Source of the DNA: Terriglobia bacterium
GTDB taxonomy: Bacteria > Acidobacteriota > Terriglobia > Acidiferrales > UBA7541
Direction of reading: 5' to 3'
Assembly (NCBI GenBank): GCA_020073705.1
Contig: JAIQES010000015.1
Coordinates: 1 to 64,000 of the forward strand
Length of the DNA stretch: 64,000 nucleotides
Shown here: positions 10,660 to 54,523 of the stretch, in pieces
How the letters are laid out: each line of letters starts with the position of its first letter
Position numbering within the stretch: the first letter of the stretch is position 1
Translations under genes and position numbers: made by a program
The notes under the pieces: model-generated
Seen by the model: only the letters and a program-made list of their open reading frames with translations
Told to the model about the DNA's origin: nothing
Database searches by the model: none

Positions 10660-11550
10660 TTACGCCTTATAGAACTTGCGCACCGCGCGCAGCGCATTGC
10701 TGCCGGTCTGCTCCAGGAAATTCTTGTAAGTTTTCAAGACGTAATTGTCCTCCGGCAGCGGTTGATGGCGCTTCCACGGAGTGCCAATGATGGTGTCGAA
10801 TCCATACGGCACGGCCAGGGTGAGAAAAGCGGACTCGAGGGAGTGCTTCAATTCGGAACCATCTGCTGCCTTCTTAGGCATTTGCTGCGCGATGTTCGTC
10901 AGGCCGCCCATCCTGTGCGTCCCGGCGAGATCGGGATCGTTGCCGATCAACTTGATGGCGTCGAGCGTCGAGCGGTTCAGGCCGGCGGTGTCGGCAATAA
11001 TGGCGCTCACCGATACATCAATCAGGATGTCATCCATAGCCATTCCGTATTCATTGCGCAAGCGCAGCGCGCAGCGTTTGGCCGTCCTGTAAATCTCGTC
11101 AGCTGTCTTGTTTCCCTTGGCGATGCCCTCTTCCACTCTCTCGGAAGCCATGGCGATGACCTTGAACGGACCGAAATGCTTATGCAGATCCATCAAATCC
11201 CATCGGTGCTCCGTGATGGAGTTGATCATTGGCATTTGCCCGCCGGCGCGTGCCCGGTCGTAGGTTTCCAGGCACACCTCCTGCACCTGGGCGCTCGGGA
11301 AGTCGAACGCCAGCGGCGTGGTTACCACCGCCTGGATCGCCCGGATGACCTCGGCCATGAAGGCCGAATCGGTCAGCGCCCGCGCTCCGATATTGATGTC
11401 TAGATACCAGGCGCCGGCTTGGGCCTGCTTCAGGGCCAGTCCCTGCAGGCCGGCGATATCCTCGTTGTCGAAGAAAATCTTCGAGCTCTTGAAGCCCGGA
11501 TTGATGCGTTCGCCGATGATATTGATCTTGAATTCCTGTGGTTCCGTCAT
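10660..11550 (-). CDS. Methyltetrahydrofolate:corrinoid methyltransferase (pterin-binding TIM barrel)
   Basis: This 296-residue protein is a pterin-binding methyltransferase of the AcsE/MeTr and MT II type. It moves a methyl group between the corrinoid protein and tetrahydrofolate. Features are IIGERINPGF, WYLDINIGA (about residues 47-55), PMINSITEHRW, and GGLTNIAQQMP near residue 215, where MeTr enzymes have a key Asn. The TIM barrel fills the whole protein. The start MTEPQEFKIN overlaps the upstream activator stop as ATGA, and AGAGG lies before it. In an O-demethylase-like system it would be methyltransferase II, unloading methyl onto THF. Confidence 0.88.
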   Translation of the reverse strand: MTEPQEFKINIIGERINPGFKSSKIFFDNEDIAGLQGLALKQAQAGAWYLDINIGARALTDSAFMAEVIRAIQAVVTTPLAFDFPSAQVQEVCLETYDRARAGGQMPMINSITEHRWDLMDLHKHFGPFKVIAMASERVEEGIAKGNKTADEIYRTAKRCALRLRNEYGMAMDDILIDVSVSAIIADTAGLNRSTLDAIKLIGNDPDLAGTHRMGGLTNIAQQMPKKAADGSELKHSLESAFLTLAVPYGFDTIIGTPWKRHQPLPEDNYVLKTYKNFLEQTGSNALRAVRKFYKA

Positions 11551-13391
11551 GATGGCCTCTTGATCGCTTTCGGCGAGGGAAACCCGATGTTGCGCAGAAA
11601 GCATTTCTGGAATCCCCCCAGGGAGCTGAGTTCGATGTAGCGGCAGCGCGCAGCCAGCCGCCGCGCTTCCTCGCGCACAGCCCGCGAAGTGAGCGTTTGC
11701 CTGATCCCGGCACCCGCGGCATTGCCCACCTGCTCAAATCGCTCGAGGGGAAGATCCGGGAAAAGCCCGATCTGCTTTCCGCCGGCGACGTCAATGTATG
11801 CGCCAAACGCACCCGCCACGATAAATCGCTCGATCCGGCTCTCTTCAATGCCCATTTCCTTCACCAGCATCTCGATGCCCGTGCGCACGGCCGCCTTGGC
11901 CAATTGGATGGCGCGAATATCATGCTGGAAGAGGTAAACGCCGGGGGCCAGCGTGGCATAGCGCTTGCCCTCGGCCAGGCCGATGTCCGGGTGGTTCATG
12001 GCCAGCCTCCCGCTGTGGTCAATGATTGCGCCGCGATGCATGGCCGCCACTGCATCGAGCACGCCGGAACCGCATAGCCCGATGGCCTTTGTCTTTCCGA
12101 TCACCTCGACGGTGATGCGGCCGTTTTCAATGCGTACCCGTTCGATCGCGCCTTCCGCTGCGCGCATTCCGCAGGAGATGTTCCCGCCTTCGAGCGCGGG
12201 GCCGGACGGGCAGGAGGCCGAAAGTATCTTTCCCTCATGGATCAGCGAAATTTCGGTATTCGTACCGACATCCATTACCAGGCTGGTTGTGGCCGAGTTC
12301 CACTGCTTCTGCGTGGCCAGCAGCGCCATGACGTGGTCCGCGCCGACGAAGCCCCCGATGTTCGGCGCAAAGTGCACACAGGCTCCGGAGGCGATGTTCA
12401 GGCCGAGATCCCGCGCCTTTACGTCGAGCGATTCCCGCACGGCCGCAACGAACGGCGCACGGCCAAGCTGATTTACGGGCAAGCCCAACAGGAGATGATG
12501 CATCGCCGTATTGCAGCCCACGGCGGCGTCAACGATGTCACTCGTCCGGGCGCCAACCGCGCGGCACAGGTCGTTGGCCAGGGTATTCACGGCCATTACA
12601 GCCGCGTGGCGCAACTCCTCCGCCTGCACTTGTCCGCGGGTGGCGTAATTGATCCGGCTGATCAGGTCTGCGCCCCAGGCGACCTGTGGATTCTCAATGC
12701 CCACGCTGACCAGCCGCTGGCCGCTCTGCAAATCTATGAGAAAGCCCGCGACATTGGTCGTACCCAGATCGATGGCCAGCCCCAGTGTCCTGGCCCCCGG
12801 CGGCGCAAAGCCGGTCAGTTCGCAATCGCGTATGCGCAGGGTCACGGCCCATGCATTCTTGCGCAAAAGGCCGGGCAGTTCGCGCGCGGCCAGGGCGTCC
12901 ACCGTGACCAGCTTCTCGCTGGCCGCCCGAAGAACGCGATCCACATCACTGAGGTTGTCGGTCAGGGTTGCTACCGGAACGGTGACCTCGACGCTGCGCA
13001 CGGCCGGGTCCAGCGGGAGACTCTCGGAGCCGCCGCTGTGATCGACTTCAGCCCGCACAACCGGCGCCAGCGAACGCGGCGCGATTTCGACCGTGCAGTC
13101 ACTGTGCGGCGTGGTGCAGCAGGAGCGCACCCATTTCCGGCGGCTGGTTGTCTGCCCTTTCCCATTCTCTGCGGCCGGACTCTTCTCGCCATAAGGGCCC
13201 GCTTGCCCCCTCGTTATTCGAACAGCGCATGCGCCGCAGGTTCCCCGGCCGCCGCACGCGCCGACGATGCGCACCCCAGTGCGCCGCGCCGCCTGAAATA
13301 TGGATTCCCCCGCGCGGCCTTCGATCTCGCGATCAAGGTCGGGAAAGCGCAGCGTGTAGGTTACCGGCACGATCTCCTGGTGTTTCACCAT
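11547..13391 (-). CDS. RACo-type corrinoid activation protein (2Fe-2S plus ASKHA ATPase)
   Basis: This 614-residue protein resembles RACo and O-demethylase activating enzymes, which use ATP to reduce inactive cob(II)alamin in the corrinoid protein. An N-terminal plant-type ferredoxin domain has C46-x5-C52-x2-C55 plus a later Cys (C91, C92 or C99). A linker domain follows. The C-terminal ATPase-like part has DLGTTNVAGFLIDLQSG and VMDVGTNTEISL, the two phosphate-type loops, and GGFVGADHVMALLAT. It ends as ATGA over the methyl-THF methyltransferase start. Start MVKHQEIVPV was chosen because an upstream extension would overlap the preceding gene and lacks homology. Confidence 0.9.
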   Translation of the reverse strand: MVKHQEIVPVTYTLRFPDLDREIEGRAGESIFQAARRTGVRIVGACGGRGTCGACAVRITRGQAGPYGEKSPAAENGKGQTTSRRKWVRSCCTTPHSDCTVEIAPRSLAPVVRAEVDHSGGSESLPLDPAVRSVEVTVPVATLTDNLSDVDRVLRAASEKLVTVDALAARELPGLLRKNAWAVTLRIRDCELTGFAPPGARTLGLAIDLGTTNVAGFLIDLQSGQRLVSVGIENPQVAWGADLISRINYATRGQVQAEELRHAAVMAVNTLANDLCRAVGARTSDIVDAAVGCNTAMHHLLLGLPVNQLGRAPFVAAVRESLDVKARDLGLNIASGACVHFAPNIGGFVGADHVMALLATQKQWNSATTSLVMDVGTNTEISLIHEGKILSASCPSGPALEGGNISCGMRAAEGAIERVRIENGRITVEVIGKTKAIGLCGSGVLDAVAAMHRGAIIDHSGRLAMNHPDIGLAEGKRYATLAPGVYLFQHDIRAIQLAKAAVRTGIEMLVKEMGIEESRIERFIVAGAFGAYIDVAGGKQIGLFPDLPLERFEQVGNAAGAGIRQTLTSRAVREEARRLAARCRYIELSSLGGFQKCFLRNIGFPSPKAIKRPS

Positions 13392-13408
13392 GGTTGCGTT
13401 CTCGCCGC

Positions 13409-14104
13409 TCACGCTACCGTCATCAGGGAACCGCGCACCGCCGCGCATTTTTCGCGGGAACGACATTCATCGCAGCGCGACCACCATGCCGGAGGCAGGC
13501 CGGGTCCCACGCCGTAGATTACCGAGAGGGATTTCAACGGCGTGAGTTGGAGAGTTCTGGTCGCAGTCACACCGATTTTCTCCGCATGCGCCAACCGTAG
13601 AACCGCGTGCTGCGCCTCCAAAGCCAGCCCCGGGTCCCCGGGTCTCAGCTCCCCTGACACGCAAAGCCCGCGCTTCGTCGCATCCAAGAGGAGGCGTTTC
13701 CGCAGGCGGTAACTGCCCTCGCTCAGCATGCGGTTGCCAAGTTCGTCCAGGGCCAGCGCTACAGAGGCGCGCCGCTCCGTCAACAGCGTACTCACCCGCT
13801 CTTCGAGCCCCCGGCCAAGCGTGCACACTCCGAAGGCCAGGGCGGTCAGTTCGCCCTGTTCGGGCACAAGGCGCGGAGCGTCAAACGATTCGCCCCCGGC
13901 CCGGAGAATACCCGCCCGGTAGTTGCCGGAAGACGGCTCCGCGAGGGGTACCACCGAGTAGCTAAGGAAAACCTGTCCCAAGCTCTCGGCGCGGGCAATA
14001 TCCAGCGCTTGCGCGCGAAGCCGCTCGCGAACCGGCGTTGCAGACGCTCCCGGAGGCAGCTTCGCCACCGTTCCCAACACATTGCTGTTCCATGTGACGG
14101 GCAT
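13409..14104 (-). CDS. MetH-activation-domain-like protein
   Basis: This 231-residue protein has no membrane segment or signal peptide. Its C-terminal half resembles the S-adenosylmethionine-binding reactivation domain of cobalamin-dependent methionine synthase: LTPLKSLSVIYGVGPG (about residues 183-198) followed by a Cys-rich tail, CDECRSREKCAA. Stand-alone proteins of this kind occur next to corrinoid proteins and RACo homologues. The likely role is reductive remethylation or stabilisation of the corrinoid, alongside the RACo-type activator. It sits between the UroD-type methyltransferase (12 bases) and RACo (17 bases). The match is by motif only, so a different role is possible. Confidence 0.65.
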   Translation of the reverse strand: MPVTWNSNVLGTVAKLPPGASATPVRERLRAQALDIARAESLGQVFLSYSVVPLAEPSSGNYRAGILRAGGESFDAPRLVPEQGELTALAFGVCTLGRGLEERVSTLLTERRASVALALDELGNRMLSEGSYRLRKRLLLDATKRGLCVSGELRPGDPGLALEAQHAVLRLAHAEKIGVTATRTLQLTPLKSLSVIYGVGPGLPPAWWSRCDECRSREKCAAVRGSLMTVA

Positions 14105-14116
14105 CTCCTGCGCCTC

Positions 14117-15385
14117 TCAGCCGGCGTACTTCCGCGCTGCGTGGAACATCGCGCGTGCGTTTTCGACCGGTGTCTCGTCCGGAAGGCCAAAGGCACAGTC
14201 CAGAATCAGCTTGCCGCCCCTGTTGAATACGTTGTCCACAAGGTGCTTCACCGCGGCATCCACTTCCTCGGGCTTGCCCGTCGTCATCAGCGACGGAGAA
14301 AGATTGCCGCGCAGCGCCACCACATCACCCAACACCTCGAAAGCCTTCACCATATCGGTGCGTTCGAACCAGTAAATGCACTTGCCTGGCGGCACGTCGC
14401 GGATGATTTCCAGGCGCTTGGTGCAGTCCACCTCCCACAGCGGCATGGGAATCAGTCCGGCGTCAATCAAGCCAATCAGCATCTTGCGGAAAGTCGGCCA
14501 CCAGAACGTCTCAAACTGTTTCCCGGACATGAAGGCGTCGGGAGCCCAGTGAGTCGGAATCATGACGATGTCCACGCCGGAGAGCTTTGCGTTGGTGATC
14601 GTCATGCGCGTCAGAAATACCGAAGCCTTCTCCAGCAGCGCGAGCAGTTTGTCCTTGTGCCGAAATAAGTCCTTCATCATTCCCGTGGCCCCGCGAAAAT
14701 AGTCCGCCACAAAGTCGTACGGCGAAACGGAGTGGAAGGCGCTGATCAGCGGGTAGCCCAGACTGTTCATTCTTTTGTTAAACATGGCGCTGTGCGTGGC
14801 GAAGCGATCGACTTCCTCCGCCGCCTTCATCAGGTTCTCCAGCGCCTTGCGCACCGTAGGCTTGCTGAATGGACGAATGCCGTTGACGAGCCGGAGATAG
14901 TGCATGCCCGGAAAGATGGGCAGGTCCTCGATCCCTTCGAACGCGCTGGCCACTCGCGGCAGGTATTTCTGCAGATAGAAGCCCGTTGGATCAAACAGAA
15001 AATCATCGTATTCCTCGGGCTTCATGTACTCCCGGTCGAGGTATTGGTAGGGCTGGCTGTCGCCGACACCGTGGCCTGGCCACTGCAACTGCTTGAATCC
15101 GATGGCTTCGAGCGACCGCCCCATGCAGGTCAGTGCGAAGAGCGGAGCCACGCCATCGGGCTCGAATTCGAGCACCGCGCGCTCTCCAATCGCCATGTTT
15201 TTCTCGTAGTCGTACATCAATTCCTTGTACGTGATGCCGCCGTATTTTGCCAGCCAGAAGGTCGCATGCAGGGCCACCGGCATGCGGTCCGGTTGCTTCA
15301 GCGCGACGCAATCCATGATCCGCTGAAAGCGCTTGTCGTAGGCCTGCTTGATTTCGGGATTCTGCGTTTGTTCCACCGTGGTCAT
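14117..15385 (-). CDS. Uroporphyrinogen decarboxylase-family methyltransferase (MtaA/MT I type)
   Basis: This 422-residue protein has the UroD/MtaA fold used by corrinoid-linked methyltransferases. Segments such as RFQRIMDCVALKQPDRMPVALHATFW, GVDIVMIPTHWAPDAFMSGKQFETFWWP and LRGNLSPSLMTTGKPEEVDAAVKHLVD are typical of the decarboxylase-like barrel. It is longer than housekeeping HemE, and its context is corrinoid chemistry, not haem synthesis. It most likely takes a methyl group from an unknown substrate and hands it to the corrinoid protein, whose stop codon overlaps its ATG (ATGA). A Zn site would be expected; candidate Cys and His residues are C354 and several His, but I could not assign ligands. 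Confidence 0.85.
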   Translation of the reverse strand: MTTVEQTQNPEIKQAYDKRFQRIMDCVALKQPDRMPVALHATFWLAKYGGITYKELMYDYEKNMAIGERAVLEFEPDGVAPLFALTCMGRSLEAIGFKQLQWPGHGVGDSQPYQYLDREYMKPEEYDDFLFDPTGFYLQKYLPRVASAFEGIEDLPIFPGMHYLRLVNGIRPFSKPTVRKALENLMKAAEEVDRFATHSAMFNKRMNSLGYPLISAFHSVSPYDFVADYFRGATGMMKDLFRHKDKLLALLEKASVFLTRMTITNAKLSGVDIVMIPTHWAPDAFMSGKQFETFWWPTFRKMLIGLIDAGLIPMPLWEVDCTKRLEIIRDVPPGKCIYWFERTDMVKAFEVLGDVVALRGNLSPSLMTTGKPEEVDAAVKHLVDNVFNRGGKLILDCAFGLPDETPVENARAMFHAARKYAG

Positions 15386-16035
15386 TTCCCGTCTCCCGTC
15401 CAATTCTTGCAGAGTGCCACAGCCTCCACCGCGTTGACTCCGAAAGCGTCCGCTCCCGTATAACCGCGGACGGTCTCGTCAATCTGCCCTCCGCCGATCA
15501 TGATCTTGAATTCTCTGCGCAGGTTGGCGTCCTCGATCGCGGCGATCGTCTCCTTCATCGAGTCAAAGGCAACCGTCAGGAAGCCGGAAAGCCCCACGAC
15601 GTGAGGCTTGTAGTCGCGGATCTCGTCCAGGAAGGTCTTCACCGGAACGTCCACGCCGATGTCCCGCACCTCGAAGCCATTGATGTCCAGCATGAAGGAG
15701 ACGATGTTCTTGCCGATGTCGTGCAGATCACCGTGCACCGTGCCAATCAGCACACGCGCGAGTTTCTTTGCTTCCTCCCCCGGTTTCTTCTTGATCAGCG
15801 GCTTGGCCACCGCCCCGATGTTCTCCAGCATCTCGCCCGCCAGCACCAGCTCGGGAAGGAAGTACTCCCCGGCTTCAAACCGCTTGCCGACCACGCCCAT
15901 CGCCTCACGGCACAATTCGAGAACGCGCACGGGGTCCGCACCCTCCTCGAGCAGCATGCGGTTGGCGAGAGCCGTGGCCTCTTCCTCGCGCATATCCGCG
16001 AGCCATTCCACAAGGTTGCGCTCCTGTTCGTTCAT
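15382..16035 (-). CDS. Corrinoid protein (MtaC/MtvC type)
   Basis: This 217-residue protein is a methyl carrier. An N-terminal helical cap (about residues 1-90, with GEYFLPELVLAGEML) precedes a B12-binding Rossmann domain. The cobalamin signature is D103-L-H105-D-I-G108, where H105 is the lower cobalt ligand, followed by VGLSGFLTV and MIGGGQ. It lies between the MetV-MetF fusion (33 bases upstream) and the UroD-type methyltransferase (ATGA overlap). It should shuttle methyl from that enzyme to the pterin methyltransferase further along the operon. Length and motifs are normal for the family. Confidence 0.94.
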   Translation of the reverse strand: MNEQERNLVEWLADMREEEATALANRMLLEEGADPVRVLELCREAMGVVGKRFEAGEYFLPELVLAGEMLENIGAVAKPLIKKKPGEEAKKLARVLIGTVHGDLHDIGKNIVSFMLDINGFEVRDIGVDVPVKTFLDEIRDYKPHVVGLSGFLTVAFDSMKETIAAIEDANLRREFKIMIGGGQIDETVRGYTGADAFGVNAVEAVALCKNWTGDGK

Positions 16036-16068
16036 TCTTTTTCCTCCCTTTGCAAAGCACGCGGCCTT

Positions 16069-17469
16069 CTAGGCCACCCTCGTGCGCAAGCCGGATTCGG
16101 CGATCGCGTCTGCAAGCATGTCTTCGTTCTTGTATCCCATCAGGTGCATGCCGGCCACGCCCTCGATTCCCCGCAAGGCAGCGATGGTCTCGAGCAGTAT
16201 CTTTTTCCCCTCAAGCGCCTGGTCCTGGGCATTGGCGACGCGCTGAATGACCTTTTCCGGAACGTGAACGCCGGGAACATGCTGCGCCATCCAGCGTAGA
16301 CCCTTCGCGCTGCGCAGAGCGCCGACGCCCACCAGAATCCGGCAGCGCTCGTGCAATCCGCGCGCGCGCACTTCGCGCATGAAATTCTCCAGCAGCCCCG
16401 GATCGAAGCAGAACTGCGTCTGGATGAACTGCGCCCCAGCATTGATTTTTTTCTCCAGATTGACCACACGGTCCGCGTACGGAGGCATAAAAGGGTTCGC
16501 CGCCGCGCCCAGGAACAGATTCGGCGCGGCATCCAGCTTGCGGCCCGAGGCGAACCGCCCCTCGTCCCGCAAGCCGCGCGCAATGCCCAAGAGGGAAACG
16601 GCGTCCAGATCGAAAACGGCTTTGGCCCCGGGGTGATCGCCGTTGCGGATGTCGTCCCCGGTCAGACACAGAAAGTTGCGCACACCGAGCGCCGCGGCAC
16701 CCAGAAGATCTCCCTGCACCGCCAGCCGGTTGCGGTCCCGGCAGGTCATCTGGCACACCGCTGTGTGGCCGTTAGCAGTCAGCACCGCCGCGCCCGCCAC
16801 GCTCGAGAGGTGGCAGTTCGCACCCGCGCCATCTGTGATGTTCATCGCATCCACGAGGCCCCGGAAATAGGCGGCACGCTTGAGAAGATCGGTGCAATCG
16901 GGGGAATCCGGAGGGGTTATTTCGACTGTGACCAGGAATCGCCCGGACTCGCAGGCGCGTTCGAAGCCGTACTTGGGGCGCTCCAACGCGCGGAGCGCAG
17001 CGCGTTGCTCCACGACTGGCAGACCATTTTCACTAGCGACGATCTGGAGCCAGGTAGATCGCCCGCGATACCTCTGATCCACCGGCGGGAGCAGGAGAGA
17101 CTCGGCGGGGGCCTCGTCCGCCATCCTCTTCCGGCCTTCGGCCACTTCCAGCCATACGCAACGCATCTCGGGCATCACTTCGCATCCCTCGTCAGGACGC
17201 ACGCCGCCACACGGACCGTTGCGCATCTCCTTGCCGCAATTCTCAGGGCACGCCATCCCGGTCGAAGAGAGTGCGCATTGCCCACACATCTGGCAATCGA
17301 AAAAGAGACCCTTCGCAACCCGTTCCAGGGGCAAGAACAGCTTTTCAGAGCGCTCCCGGCCCATCAGGCGCACCACCCCGTCAAAAGATGGCGCGTACCT
17401 CCTGAAAGCTTCATACACCCGTCGCAGCCCGCCGGCATGCCGGACCGACCAGTGCCGTAGCGCTTTCAT
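16069..17469 (-). CDS. metF: MetV-MetF fusion: methylenetetrahydrofolate reductase with Cys-rich N-terminal domain
   Basis: This 466-residue protein joins two parts. The N-terminal 115 residues hold eight Cys (59, 62, 65, 74, 78, 87, 96, 104) in the pattern of the MTHFR-C/MetV zinc or Fe-S domain that is usually a separate protein or a C-terminal unit. The rest is a MetF barrel: VTVEITPPDSPD, MNITDGAGANCHLSSVAGA, FLCLTGDDIRNGDHPGAKAVFDLDAV and FIQTQFCFDPGLLENF. It interconverts methyl-THF and methylene-THF. As the first gene of the corrinoid operon it would let methyl groups delivered to THF enter C1 metabolism. The MetV domain at the N terminus is notable. Confidence 0.9.
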   Translation of the reverse strand: MKALRHWSVRHAGGLRRVYEAFRRYAPSFDGVVRLMGRERSEKLFLPLERVAKGLFFDCQMCGQCALSSTGMACPENCGKEMRNGPCGGVRPDEGCEVMPEMRCVWLEVAEGRKRMADEAPAESLLLPPVDQRYRGRSTWLQIVASENGLPVVEQRAALRALERPKYGFERACESGRFLVTVEITPPDSPDCTDLLKRAAYFRGLVDAMNITDGAGANCHLSSVAGAAVLTANGHTAVCQMTCRDRNRLAVQGDLLGAAALGVRNFLCLTGDDIRNGDHPGAKAVFDLDAVSLLGIARGLRDEGRFASGRKLDAAPNLFLGAAANPFMPPYADRVVNLEKKINAGAQFIQTQFCFDPGLLENFMREVRARGLHERCRILVGVGALRSAKGLRWMAQHVPGVHVPEKVIQRVANAQDQALEGKKILLETIAALRGIEGVAGMHLMGYKNEDMLADAIAESGLRTRVA

Positions 17470-19335: not shown

Positions 19336-19351
19336 TGGTAGGGTGATTGCA
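19336..19351 (+). promoter_or_regulatory. Sigma-54 type promoter for the sugar transferase gene
   Basis: TGGTAG-GGTGA-TTGCA has GG and GC 12 bases apart, as required for -24/-12 promoters. It lies about 250 bases before the initiating sugar transferase gene. A weak ops-like string, GGCCGCAGCATGT (19392-19404), follows at 41 bases, a distance close to that in the other four units, but differs at two core positions. The upstream 180 bases contain no gene. Confidence 0.6.
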
Positions 19352-19604
19352 GACAAACACTATGTCCTAGCTTCAGTTTCATTAGAAGCATGGCCGCAGC
19401 ATGTTTGTATCCGAACTGGCTGTTTTAGGAAAGGTGGTTTTTCGCTCCAGGCGGTTGACAGCCTGAGCCCGATTGTCGCTCAGGGCGGAGAAAGCAGCAC
19501 GCTTGGAAGCGTGCTGGGCAAAATCCGGTCAACGCTATTATGGCAACTGTCTGAGCGTCGAGGAGGGGAACCTCCACGGAAACACAAATCTCGCGGGAGC
19601 GCAA

Positions 19605-20789
19605 ATGGGAATCAGTCATTCAAAAGTTGCACATCCGACAGAGCAAGGGTCGATCCATGCTGCGGTCCCAAAGAATTCTCATGGTTTTGACCTACGTTCC
19701 GCACATAGAGAGATGACGGCCCTTCCCGAGGAAGCCTTCCATTCCATGTTGATGCTTGAGCGCCGCCGGGCGGAGCGGTCCTCCAAACCATTTGTCCTAA
19801 TGTTACTCGATGCGAATTTCGAAAATGGCTCAGCGGCGAAAATTCTAAACCATGCGCTCGAGGTAATCGTAGTTTCCAAACGAGAGACTGATCTAGTCGG
19901 TTGGTATAAAGAGAGCGCTATTCTTGGCGTCGTCTTCACGGAAGTGAATATGGAGGGGACATGCCCCATCACTGAAATTCTCCGAACAAAGATCGAGGCC
20001 GCTCTTGTTGAGCATCTGGGGCGGGAGAAAGCTGCCAAAATCGCCATTTCTTTTCATGTTTTTCCAGAAAGCTGGGATGGAAATTATTCGGGTTGGGTGG
20101 CGGACTCCAAACTTTATCCCGATCTGAATCGAAAAGTTTCGCGAAAGCGATTTCCTCTTGTTGTGAAGCGCATGATAGATTTTGCCGGCAGCGCAATCTT
20201 ATTGCTGCTGCTGTCCCCAATGCTCGGGGTAATTGCCGCGATCATCAAGTTGACGTCCAAAGGCCCGGTGATTTTCGAGCAGGAACGTCTTGGCCAGTTC
20301 GGAGCGCGCTTCAAGTGCCTGAAGTTTCGTACCATGTACACGAATAATAGTCCGAAGATTCATCAGGAGTACATCCGGCAGTTTATTTCTGGCGTGAAAG
20401 ATTGCGCGAATACGAACAAAGTTCAGGCACCGGTCTACAAGATTACGAACGACCCTCGGGTGACCCCGATCGGCAAGTTCCTGAGAAAGACCAGCCTCGA
20501 TGAGTTTCCTCAGTTCTGGAACGTCCTGCGCGGTGAAATGTCGCTTGTTGGGCCCCGTCCTCCGATTCCCTATGAGTTCGAGATTTATGATATCTGGCAC
20601 CGACGGAGAATACTGGAGGTGAAGCCGGGCGTTACCGGATTGTGGCAAGTGAACGGCCGGAGCCGTATGCGGTTCGACGAGATGGTCCGTTTGGACCTCC
20701 GTTATTGCCAGAACTGGTCTTTGTGGCTCGATCTAAAAATTCTCGTCGCCACGCCCCGAGCTGTTTTCAGCGGGGATGGCGCATGCTGA
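19605..20789 (+). CDS. Initiating sugar phosphate transferase with degenerate GGDEF-like N-terminal domain
   Basis: This 394-residue protein probably starts polysaccharide assembly by moving a sugar phosphate to undecaprenyl phosphate. The C-terminal bacterial sugar transferase domain (about residues 185-390) has one membrane segment (FAGSAILLLLLSPMLGVIAA), then RLGQFGARFKCLKFRTM, RVTPIGKFLRKTSLDEFPQFWNVLRGEMSLVGPRPP and KPGVTGLWQVNGRS. The N-terminal part resembles a GGDEF domain (EEAFHSMLMLERRRAERSS, FVLMLLDAN, RETDLVGWY), but the GGDEF signature is replaced by YKESA, so it is probably a regulatory fold without catalysis. The ATG at 19605 with GGGAG upstream is favoured. It stands alone behind its own sigma-54 type promoter. 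Confidence 0.88.
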   Translation: MGISHSKVAHPTEQGSIHAAVPKNSHGFDLRSAHREMTALPEEAFHSMLMLERRRAERSSKPFVLMLLDANFENGSAAKILNHALEVIVVSKRETDLVGWYKESAILGVVFTEVNMEGTCPITEILRTKIEAALVEHLGREKAAKIAISFHVFPESWDGNYSGWVADSKLYPDLNRKVSRKRFPLVVKRMIDFAGSAILLLLLSPMLGVIAAIIKLTSKGPVIFEQERLGQFGARFKCLKFRTMYTNNSPKIHQEYIRQFISGVKDCANTNKVQAPVYKITNDPRVTPIGKFLRKTSLDEFPQFWNVLRGEMSLVGPRPPIPYEFEIYDIWHRRRILEVKPGVTGLWQVNGRSRMRFDEMVRLDLRYCQNWSLWLDLKILVATPRAVFSGDGAC

Positions 20790-21407: not shown

Positions 21408-21423
21408 TGGCAGACTGGTTGCA
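21408..21423 (+). promoter_or_regulatory. Sigma-54 type promoter of the NusG-paralogue unit
   Basis: TGGCAG-ACTGG-TTGCA matches the -24/-12 consensus (TGGCAC-N5-TTGCW) with correct spacing. It would drive the NusG paralogue followed by the first WbpB/WbpD/WbpE set. The predicted start site is near 21434, about 20 bases before the ops-like element at 21454. Confidence 0.75.
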
Positions 21424-21453
21424 CATTAATCCTCGCTACCATGTTGCATTAAT

Positions 21454-21466
21454 GGCGGTAGCTTAT
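21454..21466 (+). promoter_or_regulatory. ops/JUMPstart-like element 1
   Basis: GGCGGTAGCTTAT, preceded by TTAAT, matches the enterobacterial ops core GGCGGTAGCNT exactly. It lies 32 bases after the -12 GC and 63 bases before the NusG paralogue ATG, so the regulator may act on its own transcript. Copies lie at 25771, 50611 and 53820. Confidence 0.75.
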
Positions 21467-21529
21467 ATAGAGACCAGCTTTCCCTTCCATTAGTACGATA
21501 GCTGGAGAAAAGGGAGGCTCAAAGATTTC

Positions 21530-22096
21530 ATGAGTCCAGAAATCAAGGGCGAACAGTGGTATGCGCTCCAAGTGAGGAGCCGCTGGGAAAGATCAACCGC
21601 CACGCTCCTGAGCGGGAAGGGCTATGAGACCTTATTGCCAACCTACAAGTCGAAGCGGCGCTGGAGCGGTAGGCTGAAAGAAGTAAGTGCTCCGCTGTTT
21701 CCGGGTTACGTGTTCTGTTCTTTTGACGTTTTCAAGCGGCTCCCGATTCTGGTAACACCTGGAGTGATCGCTGTTGTCGGCAGAGGCCGCGTGCCTGTGC
21801 CAATGGAAGCTTCCGAAATCTCAGCCATCCAAGCGCTTGTTTCCTCCGGGCTACATGCTGAACCCTATCCCTATCTGGAGGTAGGGCAGAAAGTTCGCAT
21901 TGAAAGCGATGCTCTGCGCGGCGTGGAGGGAATCTTGATCGCATTCAGAGGGAGCCGGCGGATCGTGGTTTCGGTGTCCTTATTGCGTCGATCCGTAGCC
22001 TTGGAAATTGACCGGGCTCGCGTCATCCCTGTCCGTGGAACGACTCTGCTGGATCCGCCAACCTCGCAGTCATTGCTTGACGGTGCGATCGCATAA
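21530..22096 (+). CDS. NusG paralogue (RfaH/UpxY-like antiterminator)
   Basis: This 188-residue protein is a specialised NusG paralogue. The NGN domain (about residues 8-115) has WYALQVRSRWERS, LLPTYKSKRRWSGRLKEVSAPLFPGYVF and TPGVIAVVGRGR. The linker and KOW domain (about 128-178) have VGQKVRIESDALRGVEGILIAF. The PLFPGYVF segment is typical of RfaH, UpxY and LoaP-like proteins encoded in polysaccharide loci. Such proteins bind RNA polymerase at a loading site and let it pass terminators in long operons. Ops-like elements start four operons here, including this one. GGGAGG lies 15 bases before the ATG, rather distant. A housekeeping NusG role is unlikely because no SecE or ribosomal genes are nearby. 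Confidence 0.9.
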   Translation: MSPEIKGEQWYALQVRSRWERSTATLLSGKGYETLLPTYKSKRRWSGRLKEVSAPLFPGYVFCSFDVFKRLPILVTPGVIAVVGRGRVPVPMEASEISAIQALVSSGLHAEPYPYLEVGQKVRIESDALRGVEGILIAFRGSRRIVVSVSLLRRSVALEIDRARVIPVRGTTLLDPPTSQSLLDGAIA

Positions 22097-22346: not shown

Positions 22347-23348
22347 ATGATCAGAGTCGGCGTTATCGGTTACGGCTACTGGGGCCCTAATATCGTCAGG
22401 AATCTCCACGCATTGGACTCCACGCACGTCGAAGCCGTTTGCGACAAGAGCGAAGCAGCGCTTTCTCGCGTACGGAAATCCTATCCGGGCGTGAAAACGT
22501 GCCTGGATCCCTCCGAAATCCTAACCTCGCCCGCGATCGATGCTGTGGCGGTCATTACTCCCGTTTGGACTCATTACGAACTGGCCAAGGCGGCGTTGCA
22601 AAATGGGAAGCACGTCTTCGTCGAGAAGCCATTCACCTCGAATGCGAAGCAGGCGGAGGAATTGATCGAACTCGCGGCGCGGAAGAACCTCACGATCATG
22701 GTGGACCATACGTTCTTGTTCACCGGGGCGGTCCGCAAGATCTGCGAGCTGACGGAAAGCGGAGCTCTGGGGGATTTGTATTACTACGATTCTTTGCGAA
22801 TCAATCTGGGATTGTTCCAGCACGATGTCAGCGTAATTTGGGATTTGGCCCCGCATGACCTGTCGATCATGGACCATCTGATCAAGGGCGACCCTGAGGC
22901 TATTGTCGCCACCGGAGAGAAGCACCTGAACGGAGTGGAAGATGTCGCGTTCATGACGATTTATTTCCCTGGGAGCGTTATCGCGCACATCAATGTAAAC
23001 TGGCTCTCACCGGTGAAGATCCGAACGACGCTGATCGGTGGACAGAAGAAGATGCTGGTCTGGAACGATCTCGTGGCGGATGAAAAGATCCGTGTGTACG
23101 ACAAGGGAGTTCAAATCACTTCAGGGGATGGAATTCGAGACCTGCTGGTGAATTACAGGACCGGCGATATGTGGGCGCCGCAGGTGCAACAGTTGGAAGC
23201 CCTCCGTGTGGAGCTGGATTACTTTGCCGACTGCATCACGAATAATAAGACTCCTTTCAACGACGGCCACGCCGGACTGCGCGTCGTGCGGATGCTGGAA
23301 GCGGCTGAAAAGTCGATTCAAAAAAGGGGGGAGTTGATACGCCTGTGA
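22347..23348 (+). CDS. Gfo/Idh/MocA oxidoreductase, WbpB-like (copy 1)
   Basis: This 333-residue NAD-dependent oxidoreductase opens with VGVIGYGYWGPNIVRNL (Rossmann GxGxxG) and has KHVFVEKPFTSN (EKP motif) and IWDLAPHDLSIMDHL (catalytic-type His). The family member WbpB oxidises UDP-GlcNAcA at C3 before amination, and the next two genes complete that module (WbpD and WbpE types). GGAGAG precedes the ATG. Its stop overlaps the next GTG start. It differs clearly from the second WbpB-like domain at 26973, so this is not a recent tandem copy. Confidence 0.87.
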   Translation: MIRVGVIGYGYWGPNIVRNLHALDSTHVEAVCDKSEAALSRVRKSYPGVKTCLDPSEILTSPAIDAVAVITPVWTHYELAKAALQNGKHVFVEKPFTSNAKQAEELIELAARKNLTIMVDHTFLFTGAVRKICELTESGALGDLYYYDSLRINLGLFQHDVSVIWDLAPHDLSIMDHLIKGDPEAIVATGEKHLNGVEDVAFMTIYFPGSVIAHINVNWLSPVKIRTTLIGGQKKMLVWNDLVADEKIRVYDKGVQITSGDGIRDLLVNYRTGDMWAPQVQQLEALRVELDYFADCITNNKTPFNDGHAGLRVVRMLEAAEKSIQKRGELIRL

Positions 23349-23854
23349 ACGAATTTTGCTCGATTACACCCGACGTGAAGCTTGGCAAAGGTGTCAAGCT
23401 GTCCAAATTTATCAACCTGTACGGCTGCGAGATTGGCGATAACACGAAGATTGGTGCATTTGTTGAGATTCAGAAGAATGCAAAGGTGGGCCAAAACTGC
23501 AAGATTTCAAGCCACACGTTTATTTGTGAAGGGGTGACCATTGAAAACGATGCGTTCATTGGTCATGGCGTTACATTTATCAATGATATCTATCCCCGTG
23601 CCACGAACTCGGACGGCCACTTGCAGACAGAGAGCGACTGGAAAGTCGATCGGACACTGGTGAAGAAAGGGGCCTCTGTCGGCTCAGGGGCTACGATTCT
23701 CTCCAATGTTGTGATCGGCGAAAACGCGATCGTTGGCGCGGGCAGTGTGGTGACCCGCGATGTGCCGCCCAACGTCATTGTGGCCGGAAACCCGGCCCGC
23801 ATTTTGCGCGCGATAAAATCCGAAACTACCGCGGAAGTGAGGACCAACGAATGA
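23345..23854 (+). CDS. Left-handed beta-helix acetyltransferase, WbpD-like
   Basis: This 169-residue protein is built from hexapeptide repeats (IGDNTKIGAFVEIQKNAKVG, IGHGVTFIND, SGATILSNVVIGENAIVGAGSVV), giving a trimeric left-handed beta-helix acyltransferase. It ends with DVPPNVIVAGNPARI, the family's closing motif. WbpD acetylates the 3-amino group of UDP-2-acetamido-3-amino uronic acid. The GTG start overlaps the WbpB-like stop (GTGA) and its own stop overlaps the aminotransferase ATG, so the three genes are coupled. The equivalent domain is fused to WbpB in the second set. Confidence 0.88.
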   Translation: MNEFCSITPDVKLGKGVKLSKFINLYGCEIGDNTKIGAFVEIQKNAKVGQNCKISSHTFICEGVTIENDAFIGHGVTFINDIYPRATNSDGHLQTESDWKVDRTLVKKGASVGSGATILSNVVIGENAIVGAGSVVTRDVPPNVIVAGNPARILRAIKSETTAEVRTNE

Positions 23855-25056
23855 CGCAAAATGGAAAGATTCCGTTTGTTGATCTCGTTATACCCCATCG
23901 GGAACTGCAGGAGGAACTCGTAGCCGCTTTTCGAGCGGCACTCGATACAGCCGGCTTTATCGGCGGTCCGGCCGTGGAAGGATTCGAGCGCGAATTTGCC
24001 GCTTTTTGCGACACCAAGCACTGCGTGGGAGTCTCCAGCGGCACGGATGCCTTACGGTTCGCTCTGATCGCCGCCGGCGTCAAGGCCGGACATGTTGTTC
24101 TTACCGTGCCTCTGACGTTTATCGCCACTACAGAGGCCATTTCTCAGGCGGGCGCTCTGCCCGATTTCATCGACATTGACCCGCGCACCTACACGATGGA
24201 CCCGGAAAAACTCCGCCAGTATCTTGAAACGCACTGCGTCTTGGATCCCAAGACGGGGCAATACGTTCATCGGGTTCTGGGACGACCCGTAACGGCCGTT
24301 GTTCCGGTTCACCTCTACGGTCAGAGCGCGGACATGGATCCGATTCTCGCGCTGGCCGAGCGTTACAAGCTGATGGTCATCGAAGACGCTTGCCAGGCGC
24401 ACGGCGCCGAATATTTCTCGAAGAAAGAGAACCGCTGGCGCAAGGCTGGTTCCATGGGGCAAGCGGCCGCGTTCAGCTTTTATCCAGGCAAGAATCTGGG
24501 CGCCTGCGGCGAAGGTGGTTCGGTAACGACAAACGATGAAGGGCTGGCGCGCAAAGTTAGCATGTTGCGGGATCATGGCCAGTCCAAAAAGTATTACCAC
24601 GACATTGAGGGCTATAACGGCCGGCTTGACGCCATCCAGGCGGGCATCCTGCGAGTCAAGTTAAAGCACGTGTCTCTCTGGAATGAACAGCGCCGGATAT
24701 GCGCGCGTCGTTACAACGAACTACTTGCACCCATGAAGGGACTCATCGGTATACCGTACGAACCTTCCTGGTCCAAACCGGTGTATCACCTGTACGTGAT
24801 CCGCATAGCCTACCGTGAGGAGCTGCAAGAGCACCTAACGCACGCCGGAATCGGAACTGGAATCCATTATCCCATTCCAGTTCATCTTCAAAAGGCCTAT
24901 GCATCACGGAACTGGAACCGTGGTGACTTCCCCGTGTCTGAGGAGGCCGCGGACCAGATTCTTTCTCTGGCCATGTATCCCAGCCTGCAATCGCACCAGC
25001 AGAGTCGGGTGGCCGAGGCAATTGCTGAGTTTGCTCAGATTCACTCTGTCATTTAG
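23851..25056 (+). CDS. DegT/DnrJ/EryC1/StrS aminotransferase, WbpE-like (copy 1)
   Basis: This 401-residue PLP-dependent sugar aminotransferase has GVSSGTDALRFALIAAG, VIEDACQAHGAEY and FSFYPGKNLGACGEGGSVTTND, where the Lys of PGKNLGA forms the Schiff base with PLP. In this context it would aminate the 3-keto sugar made by the WbpB-like enzyme. It starts at an ATGA overlap. The sequence holds an insertion (KKENRWRKAGSMGQ) relative to the second copy at 28678. An IS256-type remnant begins 2 bases after its stop on the other strand. Confidence 0.92.
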   Translation: MTQNGKIPFVDLVIPHRELQEELVAAFRAALDTAGFIGGPAVEGFEREFAAFCDTKHCVGVSSGTDALRFALIAAGVKAGHVVLTVPLTFIATTEAISQAGALPDFIDIDPRTYTMDPEKLRQYLETHCVLDPKTGQYVHRVLGRPVTAVVPVHLYGQSADMDPILALAERYKLMVIEDACQAHGAEYFSKKENRWRKAGSMGQAAAFSFYPGKNLGACGEGGSVTTNDEGLARKVSMLRDHGQSKKYYHDIEGYNGRLDAIQAGILRVKLKHVSLWNEQRRICARRYNELLAPMKGLIGIPYEPSWSKPVYHLYVIRIAYREELQEHLTHAGIGTGIHYPIPVHLQKAYASRNWNRGDFPVSEEAADQILSLAMYPSLQSHQQSRVAEAIAEFAQIHSVI

Positions 25057-25719: not shown

Positions 25720-25735
25720 TGGCAGCCTGATTGCA
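25720..25735 (+). promoter_or_regulatory. Sigma-54 type promoter of the 20-kb central operon
   Basis: TGGCAG-CCTGA-TTGCA matches the -24/-12 consensus with correct spacing. It precedes a run of genes from 25893 to 45525 with gaps mostly under 60 bases (largest about 135), probably one very long transcript. An ops-like element follows at 25771. Confidence 0.77.
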
Positions 25736-25770: not shown

Positions 25771-25783
25771 GGCGGTAGCTTAT
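25771..25783 (+). promoter_or_regulatory. ops/JUMPstart-like element 2
   Basis: TTTAAT-GGCGGTAGCTTAT-GTAAACC; the core is identical to element 1 over 13 bases and extends on both sides (TTAAT before, TA and CC after). It lies 37 bases after the -12 GC and 109 bases before the first start codon of the longest operon. Confidence 0.77.
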
Positions 25784-50563: not shown

Positions 50564-50579
50564 TGGCATGTTGATTGCA
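50564..50579 (+). promoter_or_regulatory. Sigma-54 type promoter of the epimerase-flippase unit
   Basis: TGGCAT-GTTGA-TTGCA matches the -24/-12 consensus with correct spacing, in the 496-base gap after the deacetylase-like gene. Nothing else coding was seen in that gap. Confidence 0.73.
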
Positions 50580-50610: not shown

Positions 50611-50623
50611 GGCAGTAGCTTAT
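50611..50623 (+). promoter_or_regulatory. ops/JUMPstart-like element 3
   Basis: GGCAGTAGCTTAT-CTACACC differs from elements 1 and 2 by one base in the core (A for G at position 4). It lies 33 bases after the -12 GC and 152 bases before the epimerase ATG. A second partial copy, GGCGGTAG, occurs at 50743-50750. Confidence 0.68.
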
Positions 50624-50775: not shown

Positions 50776-51825
50776 ATGAGAATACTGTTGACTGGCCATA
50801 AAGGTTATATCGGCGGAGTGGCGCGGCCAATGCTGCGTTCCGCCGGACATGAAGTGGTCGGCCTCGACACGGATCTCTTCGCGGGTTGCGATTTCGGGCA
50901 ACCCACCCTAGAGATTCCCGAGGTTCGCAAGGACCTCCGTAACCTGACGAAGGCTGACCTCGAGGGTTTCGATGCTGTGGTGCATTTGGCCGCATTATCG
51001 AATGATCCCCTGAGCGACCTCAATCCCGGCCTTACCTATGACATTAACTACAAAGCATCCGTGCGGCTGGCCGAACTGGCTAAGCAGGCGGGCGTACAGC
51101 GCTTCGTCTTCTCCTCCTCTTGCAGCACTTACGGTTCGTCCGGTGACGTGTTCCTCGACGAATCAGGCGCGCTCAATCCTGTGACTCCTTATGGCGAATC
51201 CAAGGTTTTGTTCGAGCGCGACGTAGCGCGGCTGGCAGACGATCACTTCAGCCCGACTTATATGAGAAATGCGACTGCCTACGGTGTGTCTCCGCGCCTC
51301 CGGCTGGACCTGGTGTTGAACGACTTTGTGGCGGCGGCGTTTACTACTGGCCGCATTTATATTAAGAGTGACGGTACGCCCTGGCGTCCGATCGTGCACA
51401 TTCGCGACATCATCGCGGCCATGCTGTGCGTCCTTGAGGCTCCCCAAAGCGCCATCCATAATGCGACCTTCAACGTCGGCCAGACGCAGGAAAACTACCG
51501 CATCAGCGAACTGGCTGACATCGTCGCTGAAACCGTGCCCGGCTCCCACATTGAGTATGCTCCCGGCGGCGGCCCTGACAAGCGCTGCTACCGCGTCAAT
51601 TGCGACAAGATCCGGAGCGTACTGCCCGACTTCCGACCGCAGTGGACAGCTCGCACGGGTGCGCAAGAGCTCTATGACGCCTATCGCGCCGCTGGACTCA
51701 CCTCTGAAGATGTGAAAAGCGGCCGCTATTTCCGGATTAACCACATCCAGCGCCTACTGAAAGCCGGGCAGTTGGACACTTCACTGCATTGGCAAGTACC
51801 GCAGGATATGGCAATATCGTCCTGA
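50776..51825 (+). CDS. NAD-dependent sugar epimerase/dehydratase (extended SDR)
   Basis: This 349-residue extended short-chain dehydrogenase has [12 protein letters not shown] (NAD-binding GxxGxxG), [27 protein letters not shown] and YGESKVLFE (catalytic YxxxK, with Ser in the SCS segment). The C-terminal half has [17 protein letters not shown] and [19 protein letters not shown], which bind the nucleotide sugar. The exact sugar reaction (4-epimerase, 4,6-dehydratase or reductase) is not clear. A strong GGGGAGG precedes the ATG. It is the first gene of its unit, followed after about 160 bases by the flippase. Confidence 0.88.
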
Positions 51826-51989
51826 TTGTGCCGTGAAACGCCGGTTCTTCAGCGATAGACAAGGATTCTCTCGTCTCCCATGAACTCAGGGCTTCCGGAG
51901 CGAGTGCGTCACCGGTATCAATACAATGAAGTTAGCCTCGATTTTCCTTTATCTATGTCCGGCTAGAATTTGACGATTCGGTGTTTCTT

Positions 51990-53552
51990 ATGATGGGTGA
52001 AAAGTTAAGCTCAACAGCCCGTAAGCTGCTCTCGGGCTCCGTGCTCCGACTGGCTAACCTTGTCGCAGCAGGCGCATCTTCGTTTCTCCTCATGCCGTTC
52101 ATTGTGCATCACCTCGGGGATCGTCTTTATGGATTCTGGACCCTCGCAGCTGCATTCATCGGCTATTACGGTGTACTAGATTTCGGTATCACAAGCGCCG
52201 TCTCTCAATACATATGTGTAGCGATCGGGCGCAACGATCAGTCCGAGTGCCGTACTGTTTTTAACACGGCTTTTCGCATTCAGTCGTTGATAGGAGGCGT
52301 TGCCCTGCTCGTGACCGCTGCAATAGCAGCCGCCGCTCCATGGTTCTGCCATAATCCTACCGATGCCGCTCTATTCCGGAAAGTTATCATTATCCTGGGT
52401 GTGAATATGGCAATTGGGTTTCCGGTGCGAACTTTTGCGGGCGTTCTAGAGGCTCAACTACGATTTGATGTTCAGTCCGGACTCGGAATTTTTGGATTAG
52501 CGCTGCGCTCAGGATTGATGGTGTGGGCGATCTTAAAGGGCGGCGGGCTGCTTGCATTGGCTTGGATGGTGTTATTTGCGACTGTTCCGGTGATCATCCT
52601 GCAGATCTGGTTTGCGCGGCGGGAGGCCCCATGGGCTCGAATCGATCATTCGCCCGTCGGGTCGAAAATAGCCAAACGCCTTTTTTCCTACAGCATCTAT
52701 ACCTTTCTGGGGATGATCGGGGACATGTTCCGGTTTCAACTAGGTCCTGCTGTCATCGCGAGTTTCATTGGGTTGGCGGCCGTCACACACTACAGAGTTG
52801 CCAGCGTATTTACATCCTATTACGTTAATTCCGTAATCTGTGCAGTAGGCATGGTTCAGCCGGTTTTGAGCCGGCTTCACGGCGCGCAGGACCGAAATGG
52901 CCTCGAGAAAGTATTTTTCTTCGCGACAAGAGCCTCACTTTGCATCTCCATTTTTATCGGCTTCAGCCTCATCGGTTGGGGAAAACCATTCATCGCTCGC
53001 TGGATGGGCCCGAAATATCAGGACGCATACTGGCCGCTAGTGGCTTTATCGCTCGCGGTCCTGCTTGACGTAGGCCAGTCTCCATCAATAAACATGCTGT
53101 ATGCCACGTTTAAGCATCGATTCTATACATACTTAAATTGCGCAGAGGGCCTTATCAATCTGGTGTGCAGTTTGTTGCTGGTTCGACCCCTTGGAGTTCT
53201 TGGCGTGGCGCTGGGCATGTTGATTGGAGCATTTCTTATTCGTATCGTGGCGCAGCCGTTTTGGGTGTGCAAGGTTAGTGGACTCCACTTCGGCGATTAC
53301 ATGAGATTTATGGGAAACACTGTGCTCCGCTGCTCGTGTCTCATGGGTGCAGTGATTGCGATTGTGTCCTGGGGTTTGAGACCGAGCTACCCTTGGTTGG
53401 TCGGTTCCGCGATTTGCGCTACAGCGACCTATGCAGCAGGATCTTGGTTTTTTGTCTTCAATCAGCGAGAACGTGAACAATTGCTTTCGGTCGTAACCCG
53501 TCGCAGCCATGAACAGGCCAAGTTGGCATCGATCAGCGCGGCAATTCAATGA
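51990..53552 (+). CDS. Wzx-type polysaccharide flippase
   Basis: This roughly 520-residue integral membrane protein has twelve or more hydrophobic segments (for example VAAGASSFLLMPFIVHHL, FWTLAAAFIGYYGVLDFGITSAVSQYI, VALLVTAAIAAAAPWF, LCISIFIGFSLIGWGKPFIARWMG). The N-terminal helix pair with LGDRLYGFWTLAAAFIGYYGVLDFGI is typical of MATE-like O-unit translocases (Wzx/RfbX). It would flip lipid-linked repeat units to the periplasm for the Wzy-type polymerase. The start is uncertain; a GTG 9 bases upstream or the next ATG are alternatives, and no strong ribosome site is present. Confidence 0.88.
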   Translation: MMGEKLSSTARKLLSGSVLRLANLVAAGASSFLLMPFIVHHLGDRLYGFWTLAAAFIGYYGVLDFGITSAVSQYICVAIGRNDQSECRTVFNTAFRIQSLIGGVALLVTAAIAAAAPWFCHNPTDAALFRKVIIILGVNMAIGFPVRTFAGVLEAQLRFDVQSGLGIFGLALRSGLMVWAILKGGGLLALAWMVLFATVPVIILQIWFARREAPWARIDHSPVGSKIAKRLFSYSIYTFLGMIGDMFRFQLGPAVIASFIGLAAVTHYRVASVFTSYYVNSVICAVGMVQPVLSRLHGAQDRNGLEKVFFFATRASLCISIFIGFSLIGWGKPFIARWMGPKYQDAYWPLVALSLAVLLDVGQSPSINMLYATFKHRFYTYLNCAEGLINLVCSLLLVRPLGVLGVALGMLIGAFLIRIVAQPFWVCKVSGLHFGDYMRFMGNTVLRCSCLMGAVIAIVSWGLRPSYPWLVGSAICATATYAAGSWFFVFNQREREQLLSVVTRRSHEQAKLASISAAIQ

Positions 53553-53771: not shown

Positions 53772-53787
53772 TGGTAGCCCGATTGCA
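53772..53787 (+). promoter_or_regulatory. Sigma-54 type promoter of the last unit
   Basis: TGGTAG-CCCGA-TTGCA has the -24/-12 GG and GC at the right distance. It lies in the 416-base gap between the flippase and the epimerase genes and is followed by an ops-like element at 53820. No gene was seen in the gap. Confidence 0.7.
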
Positions 53788-53819: not shown

Positions 53820-53832
53820 GGCGGTAGCGTAT
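53820..53832 (+). promoter_or_regulatory. ops/JUMPstart-like element 4
   Basis: TTAAT-GGCGGTAGCGTAT-CTGGAG; its first eleven bases, GGCGGTAGCGT, equal the E. coli ops sequence (GGCGGTAGCGTG...). It lies 34 bases after the -12 GC and 136 bases before the next start codon. Confidence 0.77.
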
Positions 53833-53968: not shown

Positions 53969-54523
53969 GTGATCTTCAAAGAAACAACACTTCCAGGCGC
54001 CTACGTCATCGAGCCGGAAAAAATCAATGACCACCGTGGCTTCTTCACGCGGGTCTGGTGCAAGAGAGAACTCGAGCAGCATGGTCTGAAGAGCGACTTG
54101 GCGCAGTCCAATGTGGGCTTCAGCTATCGTAAAGGCACACTGAGAGGTCTTCACTTCCAGAAGCTCCCGCACGCTGAGGTGAAAATCGTCCGTTGCACCA
54201 GAGGGGCAATCTTCGACGTTATCGTGGACATCCGTCCCGAATCACCCGCTTACAAATGTTGGTTCGGTGTGGAGCTTAGCGAGGACAACAGCAGGATGAT
54301 TTACGTTCCCGAGGGCTTCGCCCAGGGCTATATCACCCTGGTGGACAATACGGAAATGAACTATCACACGTCCGAGATGTTCAGTCCACAGGCGGCTTCC
54401 GGAGTCCGATACGATGATCCCGCGTTCGGCATCGAATGGCCCTTGGTCCCCACGGTAATTTCGGAACAGGATCGCAACTGGCCGCTCATCGAACAGCGGC
54501 GGGAGGCTTACACAAGCATATGA
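53969..54523 (+). CDS. rfbC: dTDP-4-dehydrorhamnose 3,5-epimerase-like enzyme
   Basis: This 184-residue cupin-type epimerase has EKINDHRGFFTRVWCKRELEQHGL, QSNVGFSYRKGTLRGLHFQKLPHAEVKIVRCTRGAIFDVIVDIRPESP (catalytic His in LRGLHFQ) and IYVPEGFAQGYITLVDNTEMNY with the conserved Tyr. It is normal in length. With a cytidylyltransferase of the RfbF type in the same unit and no RmlA or RmlB, the natural substrate may be a CDP-linked 4-keto sugar. The GTG start has GGAG 7 bases upstream. It overlaps the next gene as ATGA. Confidence 0.9.
   Translation: MIFKETTLPGAYVIEPEKINDHRGFFTRVWCKRELEQHGLKSDLAQSNVGFSYRKGTLRGLHFQKLPHAEVKIVRCTRGAIFDVIVDIRPESPAYKCWFGVELSEDNSRMIYVPEGFAQGYITLVDNTEMNYHTSEMFSPQAASGVRYDDPAFGIEWPLVPTVISEQDRNWPLIEQRREAYTSI

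Follow-up and report, generated by a model that had tools for sequence, protein, structure and literature searches.

In E. coli, positions G4 to A7 of the ops element form a loop from which T6 is flipped out and read by RfaH (PMC5995543). Positions 4–8 of this element matter for RfaH and not for pausing, its TG dinucleotide is pause-inducing, and RfaH itself delays RNA polymerase at ops (PMC5995543). In Bacteroides, UpxY keeps transcription from terminating within the 5′ leader that precedes its own gene, upxY (PMC7819879), and a NusG-like C-terminal domain has been suggested for UpbY, a member of the UpxY group (PMC9247905). The way in which operon-encoded NusG paralogs are recruited has been described as unknown (PMC7593976). 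Beta-folded (monomorphic) RfaH homologs acted without ops in E. coli (PMC13015549), and the current model holds that locally encoded paralogs act in cis without sequence recognition, a mode placed before the evolution of ops reading and autoinhibition (PMC7819879, PMC13015549).

We analyzed a 64,000-nt stretch of soil Acidobacteriota (Terriglobia) DNA (hereafter the window) in which a specialized NusG paralog of 188 amino acids is encoded at 21530–22096 (+). Its leader contains a sigma-54-type −24/−12 promoter box at 21408–21423 (+) (TGGCAGACTGGTTGCA, TGGC-N7-TTGCA with 0 mismatches) and an ops element at 21454–21465 (+) (GGCGGTAGCTTA), the first 11 nt of which (21454–21464) read GGCGGTAGCTT. 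The ops element starts 76 nt upstream of the ATG at 21530 and ends ~64 nt upstream of it, and from our reading of the sequence AGGGAGG at 21511–21517 (+) is a possible ribosome-binding site. With −24 and −12 elements at fixed spacing, and with RpoN encoded in this genome, the box is a good candidate sigma-54 promoter. These assignments bear out the preliminary description of the locus, which had placed an ops-like element at 21454 upstream of a NusG paralog and a sigma-54-type promoter upstream of ops. Its claim that the paralog has a sigma-54-type promoter of its own is supported; on the plus strand of the leader we found no sigma-70-like promoter, although one of a further type may be present. 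The short core GGCGGTAG is present in seven copies in the window against 1.36 expected, a number reached in 0 of 100 shuffles. The predicted fold of the window leader is not unusual (z −1.25), and the leader matched no known RNA family. An upstream GCTACC and the GGTAGC of ops could base-pair once transcribed (21435–21462); this pairing was not seen as a common feature among the leaders of relatives. We also considered a recent plasmid origin, which was rejected as plasmids gave no DNA match.

The encoded protein scores 61.4 bits against the Pfam NusG model (PF02357; cut-off 22.2, 1.2e-16, residues 9–100). Its best NCBIfam match is UpxY (NF033644) at 93 bits, below the cut-off of 100, and it also falls below cut-off for the RfaH equivalog (TIGR01955; 69 bits, cut-off 144.5), for LoaP (NF033641; 55.3 bits, cut-off 125) and for the NCBIfam NusG model. 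Because all NCBIfam scores lie below their cut-offs, we class the protein as a specialized NusG paralog of no named subfamily; its placement in a group that we term the ops-1 clade draws on Pfam, NCBIfam, AlphaFold2, Foldseek and a protein tree. AlphaFold2, run with 30 clade members, gave a mean pLDDT of 84, with most of both domains at ~90 or above. The predicted N-terminal domain is nearest to ops-bound RfaH (8pen; 1.8 Å over 96 columns by Foldseek), and at the position of RfaH K10, 50 of 56 ops-bearing members have a basic residue (R or K). The RfaH T6-pocket residues H20, R23 and R73 are not conserved in these members, so recognition cannot equal that of RfaH. The C-terminal domain is predicted as strands forming a beta barrel (pLDDT ~90) with no RfaH-like helical hairpin, although the protein may still switch folds.

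We searched 101 genomes of relatives, one per species and mostly metagenome bins, and found NusG-family matches in 92; a scan of named genomes yielded 80 loci, all from Acidobacteriota and many labeled Acidiferrales, Bryobacterales or Terriglobia. In a first set of 30 homologs, ops with at most one mismatch precedes 25 and exact ops precedes 21, versus 0.02 exact matches expected from shuffles, and no exact ops was found on the opposite strand or within genes of this set. In a larger set of 79 homologs with usable upstream sequence, GGCGGTAGCnT is exact before 37 and present with at most one mismatch before 54, usually 30–130 nt from the aligned start (median 70 nt). The 16 kb of leader sequence holds 37 exact ops, versus 6 in the remaining 1618 kb of these loci on both strands. 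A chance match of ops is rejected by the shuffle, reverse-strand, in-gene and reversed-pattern controls.

Conservation in related genomes, proposed in the preliminary description as the check on this arrangement, holds for most homologs (54 of 79) and fails for some of those close to the window. Twenty-four clade members have no recognizable ops before the NusG gene, and five of these are among the nearest homologs of the window gene (L074, L077, L078, L080 and L082), a subclade that keeps the sigma-54 box and lacks ops at the NusG gene. A sigma-54 box lies 46–66 nt upstream of ops in 24 of 55 leaders, versus 0.32 in shuffles; the leaders lacking the box presumably use other promoters. Two related homologs, L136 and L148, have in common a long conserved leader ending in GTAGCGATAGCT that gave no Rfam match and may contain another structured RNA or an ops variant.

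An ungapped stack of 55 sites confines the information to a 24-nt core, and the leaders are otherwise almost unconserved, so selection acts on this core. It forms a bipartite unit, TGGGACT-N5-GGCGGTAGCnTR, that consists in order of TGGGACT, five looser positions (with A at −2), GGCGGTAGC, any base, T, and G or A. Across the stack, ops positions 4–8 are nearly invariant, T occupies position 11 in 92% of sites, and the G or A that follows it at position 12 aligns the pair with the TG that induces pausing at E. coli ops. The downstream half resembles the RfaH system: GGCGGTAGC followed by T11 lies on the coding strand in the leaders of surface-polysaccharide operons, the putative targets, and is identical to E. 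coli ops at nine consecutive positions and T11. The upstream extension (TGGGACT), present in most relatives, and the sigma-54-type promoter have no counterpart in the RfaH system. Little of the TGGGACT half survives in the window copy or its closest relatives; in the window it can be assigned by position only, from the logo of the 55 sites, to the largely diverged TGTTGCATTAAT at 21442–21453 (+). In one homolog (L110), two tandem bipartite copies precede a single NusG gene, within 60 nt upstream of ops at −34. In the rest of the phylum, 247 genomes gave five one-mismatch matches to the bipartite element, no better than control.

The paralog unit is one of four transcription units in the window that begin with a cassette of sigma-54 box and ops, spaced 46–51 nt from the start of the box (−24) to ops. 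All four lie in a polysaccharide locus at 19–62 kb of the window that encodes glycosyltransferases, a UDP-sugar dehydrogenase and a Wzy-type ligase. Downstream of the paralog, Pfam identifies genes for a MocA-type oxidoreductase, a hexapeptide transferase and a DegT aminotransferase at 22347–25056 (+). The second cassette (box at 25720–25735 (+), ops at 25771–25782 (+)) precedes a UDP-GlcNAc 2-epimerase unit that runs from 25893 onward. The third (box at 50564–50579 (+)) has an ops-like element with one mismatch, GGCAGTAGCTTA, at 50611–50622 (+), and precedes genes for an NAD-dependent epimerase (50776–51825) and a flippase-like protein (51981–53552). The fourth has a box with one mismatch (TGGTAGCCCGATTGCA) at 53772–53787 (+) and ops at 53820–53831 (+), and precedes genes for an RmlC-like protein (53969–54523) and a DRL oxidoreductase (54436–55875). 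This last copy (GGTGACATTAAT) retains more of TGGGACT than the copy in the paralog leader, and the RmlC-like/DRL unit also has a cassette in one relative (L186, genome G046). A further sigma-54-like box (TGGTAGGGTGATTGCA) lies at 19336–19351, upstream of a sugar transferase ORF (19473–20789); it has no good ops, only GGCCGCAGCAT at 19392.

Pattern searches of the 3.79-Mb genome gave six forward and zero reverse matches to TTGCA-N20-48-GGCRGTAGC; four of the six fall in this locus, one per unit, and the remaining two are chance-like (reversed-pattern control: 8). We rejected a genome-wide ops regulon defined by the short core, as GGCGGTAG alone is not enriched across the genome (111 matches vs 394 for the reversed pattern), and only the full cassette is therefore informative.

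Across the 101 genomes, ATGGCGGTAGCYTR gave 35 matches, versus 11 for the reversed control, and ~15 of these lie directly before a NusG-paralog gene. Five intergenic sites, unlinked to or distant from such a gene and some on other contigs, all head polysaccharide genes: an ABC-2 exporter; a sugar transferase and a GT2 gene; RmlC and DRL; a 421-aa protein followed by GT2; and MocA and hexapeptide genes. The RmlC–DRL pair is the counterpart of the unit downstream of 53820 in the window. The MocA–hexapeptide site (L195, genome G041) is a cassette that heads an operon with no NusG gene directly downstream, and its two genes are homologous to those that follow the paralog in the window; the NusG gene of this genome (L074), on that contig too at a distance of ~40 kb, lacks an ops. 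The contig retains two cassettes, both at other operons. Among further ops-like matches, L183, L187 and L188 were set aside for having neither the upstream half nor a sigma-54 box, and L190–L194 because they are located inside ORFs. At 64 of 70 homologous loci, the NusG gene shares its strand with the largest ORF just 3′ of it; we sampled ten loci, and in most of them this ORF is a polysaccharide gene. Because cassettes also head units without a NusG gene, and because same-strand polysaccharide genes follow the paralog, ops is better read as a leader signal of polysaccharide operons, most of which begin with the antiterminator gene, as UpxY operons do.

Four NusG-family genes are present in this genome, one housekeeping and three specialized. 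The two other specialized paralogs have no ops and instead carry GGTTAGGTCACAAAT..CCCTGTAAGTGACnGGGCGAAGC upstream of the start codon, one in a minus-strand leader near 34649–34700 of contig C62 (L002) and the other near 14320–14377 of contig C28 (L003). The motif GGCG[A/G]AGC, which we term ops-2, precedes all 22 sister paralogs examined (these two and 20 from relatives); 16 of the 22 match the pattern exactly, and the others, which have one or two mismatches, were recognized by eye. Compared with ops, the ops-2 core looks as if T6 had been deleted. It is mostly preceded by a CCTGTAAGTSACRGG hairpin, and TGTAAGTSACRGGGCGRAGCY gave 20 matches in 61 genomes, versus 0 in the control, nearly all directly before a sister-type gene. 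Pairing in the hairpin is 86%, versus 46–57% for slid versions, with too few compensatory changes for proof, and we regard a hairpin in ops-2 leaders as probable. In a tree of 103 paralogs, a branch with 99% SH-aLRT support separates the ops-2 group from the rest, and the two assigned element states require one change on the tree; a few borderline labels (L092, L142, L144 and six ops-2 rows) were assigned manually. Candidate specificity residues, identified by correlation, are R18, R70 and P72 in the ops-1 clade and, in the ops-2 clade, H, K and V, each invariant at the respective RfaH position 13, 15 or 17. One of the 22 leaders, L204 (G017:C170), contains TGGGACTCAGAGGGCGGAGCTATG, which joins the ops-1 upstream half to an ops-2 core and is a possible evolutionary intermediate.

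This division raises the prospect, to which we give about even chances, that Acidobacteriota have at least two insulated recruitment systems per cell, with each paralog reading its own ops variant before its own gene. The window clade would read GGCGGTAGCnTR, and the sister clade would read GGCG[A/G]AGC, which is without the T that RfaH flips out. Specificity would come from the non-template DNA loop and a few residues of the NGN domain, without the alpha-helical autoinhibition of RfaH.

Judged from sequence, the window paralog is RfaH-like at the DNA and UpxY-like in gene layout, and by curated cut-offs it is in neither family. It differs from RfaH in lying inside its putative target locus with its own ops, whereas rfaH is a standalone gene that acts on unlinked operons; candidate unlinked targets are nonetheless present in some relatives of the window genome. 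The preliminary description had noted this difference from classical rfaH, and it holds against the standalone enterobacterial gene; the self-leader arrangement itself has a precedent in UpxY, which is reported to act on its own leader (PMC7819879) and whose gene likewise heads a surface-polysaccharide operon. Unlike UpxY operons, this system has a defined and conserved ops-type element, and one paralog appears to serve several units. The beta-folded RfaH homologs (PMC13015549) share with it the predicted beta C-terminal domain, a gene in or beside long polysaccharide operons and the absence of some ops-binding residues; they were ops-independent in E. coli, whereas in the present system no leader feature is as conserved as ops. 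LoaP is similarly a specialized NusG paralog for large biosynthetic clusters, and the probable hairpin of the sister ops-2 leaders adds to the likeness, but the ops-1 element includes no hairpin.

We consider it likely that the locus encodes a local antitermination system in which a NusG paralog is recruited through an RfaH-type ops. From the cassettes and their conservation, the association with polysaccharide leaders, the presence of RpoN, the paralog family and the split of elements by clade, all read directly from sequence, we infer pausing, loading, antitermination and feedback as follows. RNA polymerase with RpoN would start at the sigma-54 promoter and reach ops ~20–35 nt into the transcript. 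Polymerase paused there would expose GGCGGTAGC on the non-template strand, where the paralog would load, and the paralog would then counteract polarity or termination as it travels with polymerase through its own gene and on into the polysaccharide genes. The cassettes at 25771, 50611 and 53820 would let one paralog serve four units. Because the paralog gene sits downstream of its own ops, self-amplification would follow; such positive feedback, which the preliminary description proposed alongside a supply confined to periods of locus expression, is plausible and unproven, with the paralog placed to raise its own output. Several features weaken this explanation: a predicted beta C-terminal domain would not provide the autoinhibition that ties RfaH to ops, beta-folded homologs worked without ops in E. 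coli (PMC13015549), 24 clade members have no recognizable ops at the NusG gene, only 24 of 55 leaders have a sigma-54 box, and the T6-pocket residues of RfaH are not conserved.

The first two of these features are also what favors the main alternative, in which capture of the paralog occurs in cis and involves no DNA recognition, as proposed for the ancestral mode, and the element does no more than pause polymerase, allowing time for the paralog to be captured or for ribosomes to load. The location of the gene within its locus and the missing H20, R23 and R73 fit this alternative as well, and the loss of three of four contact residues together with the predicted beta C-terminal domain makes the strongest case against a plain copy of RfaH. 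We nevertheless regard cis capture as unlikely: the ops positions that in E. coli serve RfaH and not pausing (PMC5995543) are nearly invariant here, cassettes occur at units that lack a NusG gene, including some located on other contigs, and the element type tracks the paralog clade. The near-invariance of positions 4–8 and the cassettes at NusG-less units form the strongest case against it.

The paralog could also limit its own synthesis, by prolonging the ops pause or by competing with the start of translation. Such negative or homeostatic control would fit the delay that RfaH imposes on polymerase at ops (PMC5995543) and the proximity of the element to the start codon, but the same leader serves downstream polysaccharide genes that are expected to be activated, and identical cassettes occur at units without a NusG gene, which makes it improbable. 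Least probable of all is that the element is recognized by a different DNA- or RNA-binding protein and that its placement before NusG paralogs reflects shared polysaccharide control only: the conserved unit does exceed ops by the TGGGACT half, but it matches E. coli ops at nine consecutive positions and T11, adjoins the gene of an RfaH-like protein, and has a paralog-specific variant before the sister genes.

If ops recruits the paralog as we propose, the locus would be a natural counter-case to the model of action in cis without recognition, with ops the most conserved leader feature and a paralog predicted not to switch folds. Four aspects appear to be new: ops at a locally encoded paralog, its coupling to sigma-54 boxes, the bipartite extension and the paralog-matched element variants. 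We found no report on ops, sigma-54 and NusG paralogs in Acidobacteriota in the open-licence literature, which is weak evidence of novelty. A conserved ops at the antiterminator, with its variant in the sister family, yields a testable proposal for how antiterminators encoded at their own loci locate their targets, and the matched variants of the two clades would give a testable recognition code for insulated antitermination systems. Beside the polysaccharide locus, the minus strand of the window at 11547–17469 carries genes of RACo-type corrinoid activator, URO-D and MTHFR type, which suggests that a methyl-transfer (C1) cluster adjoins the locus.
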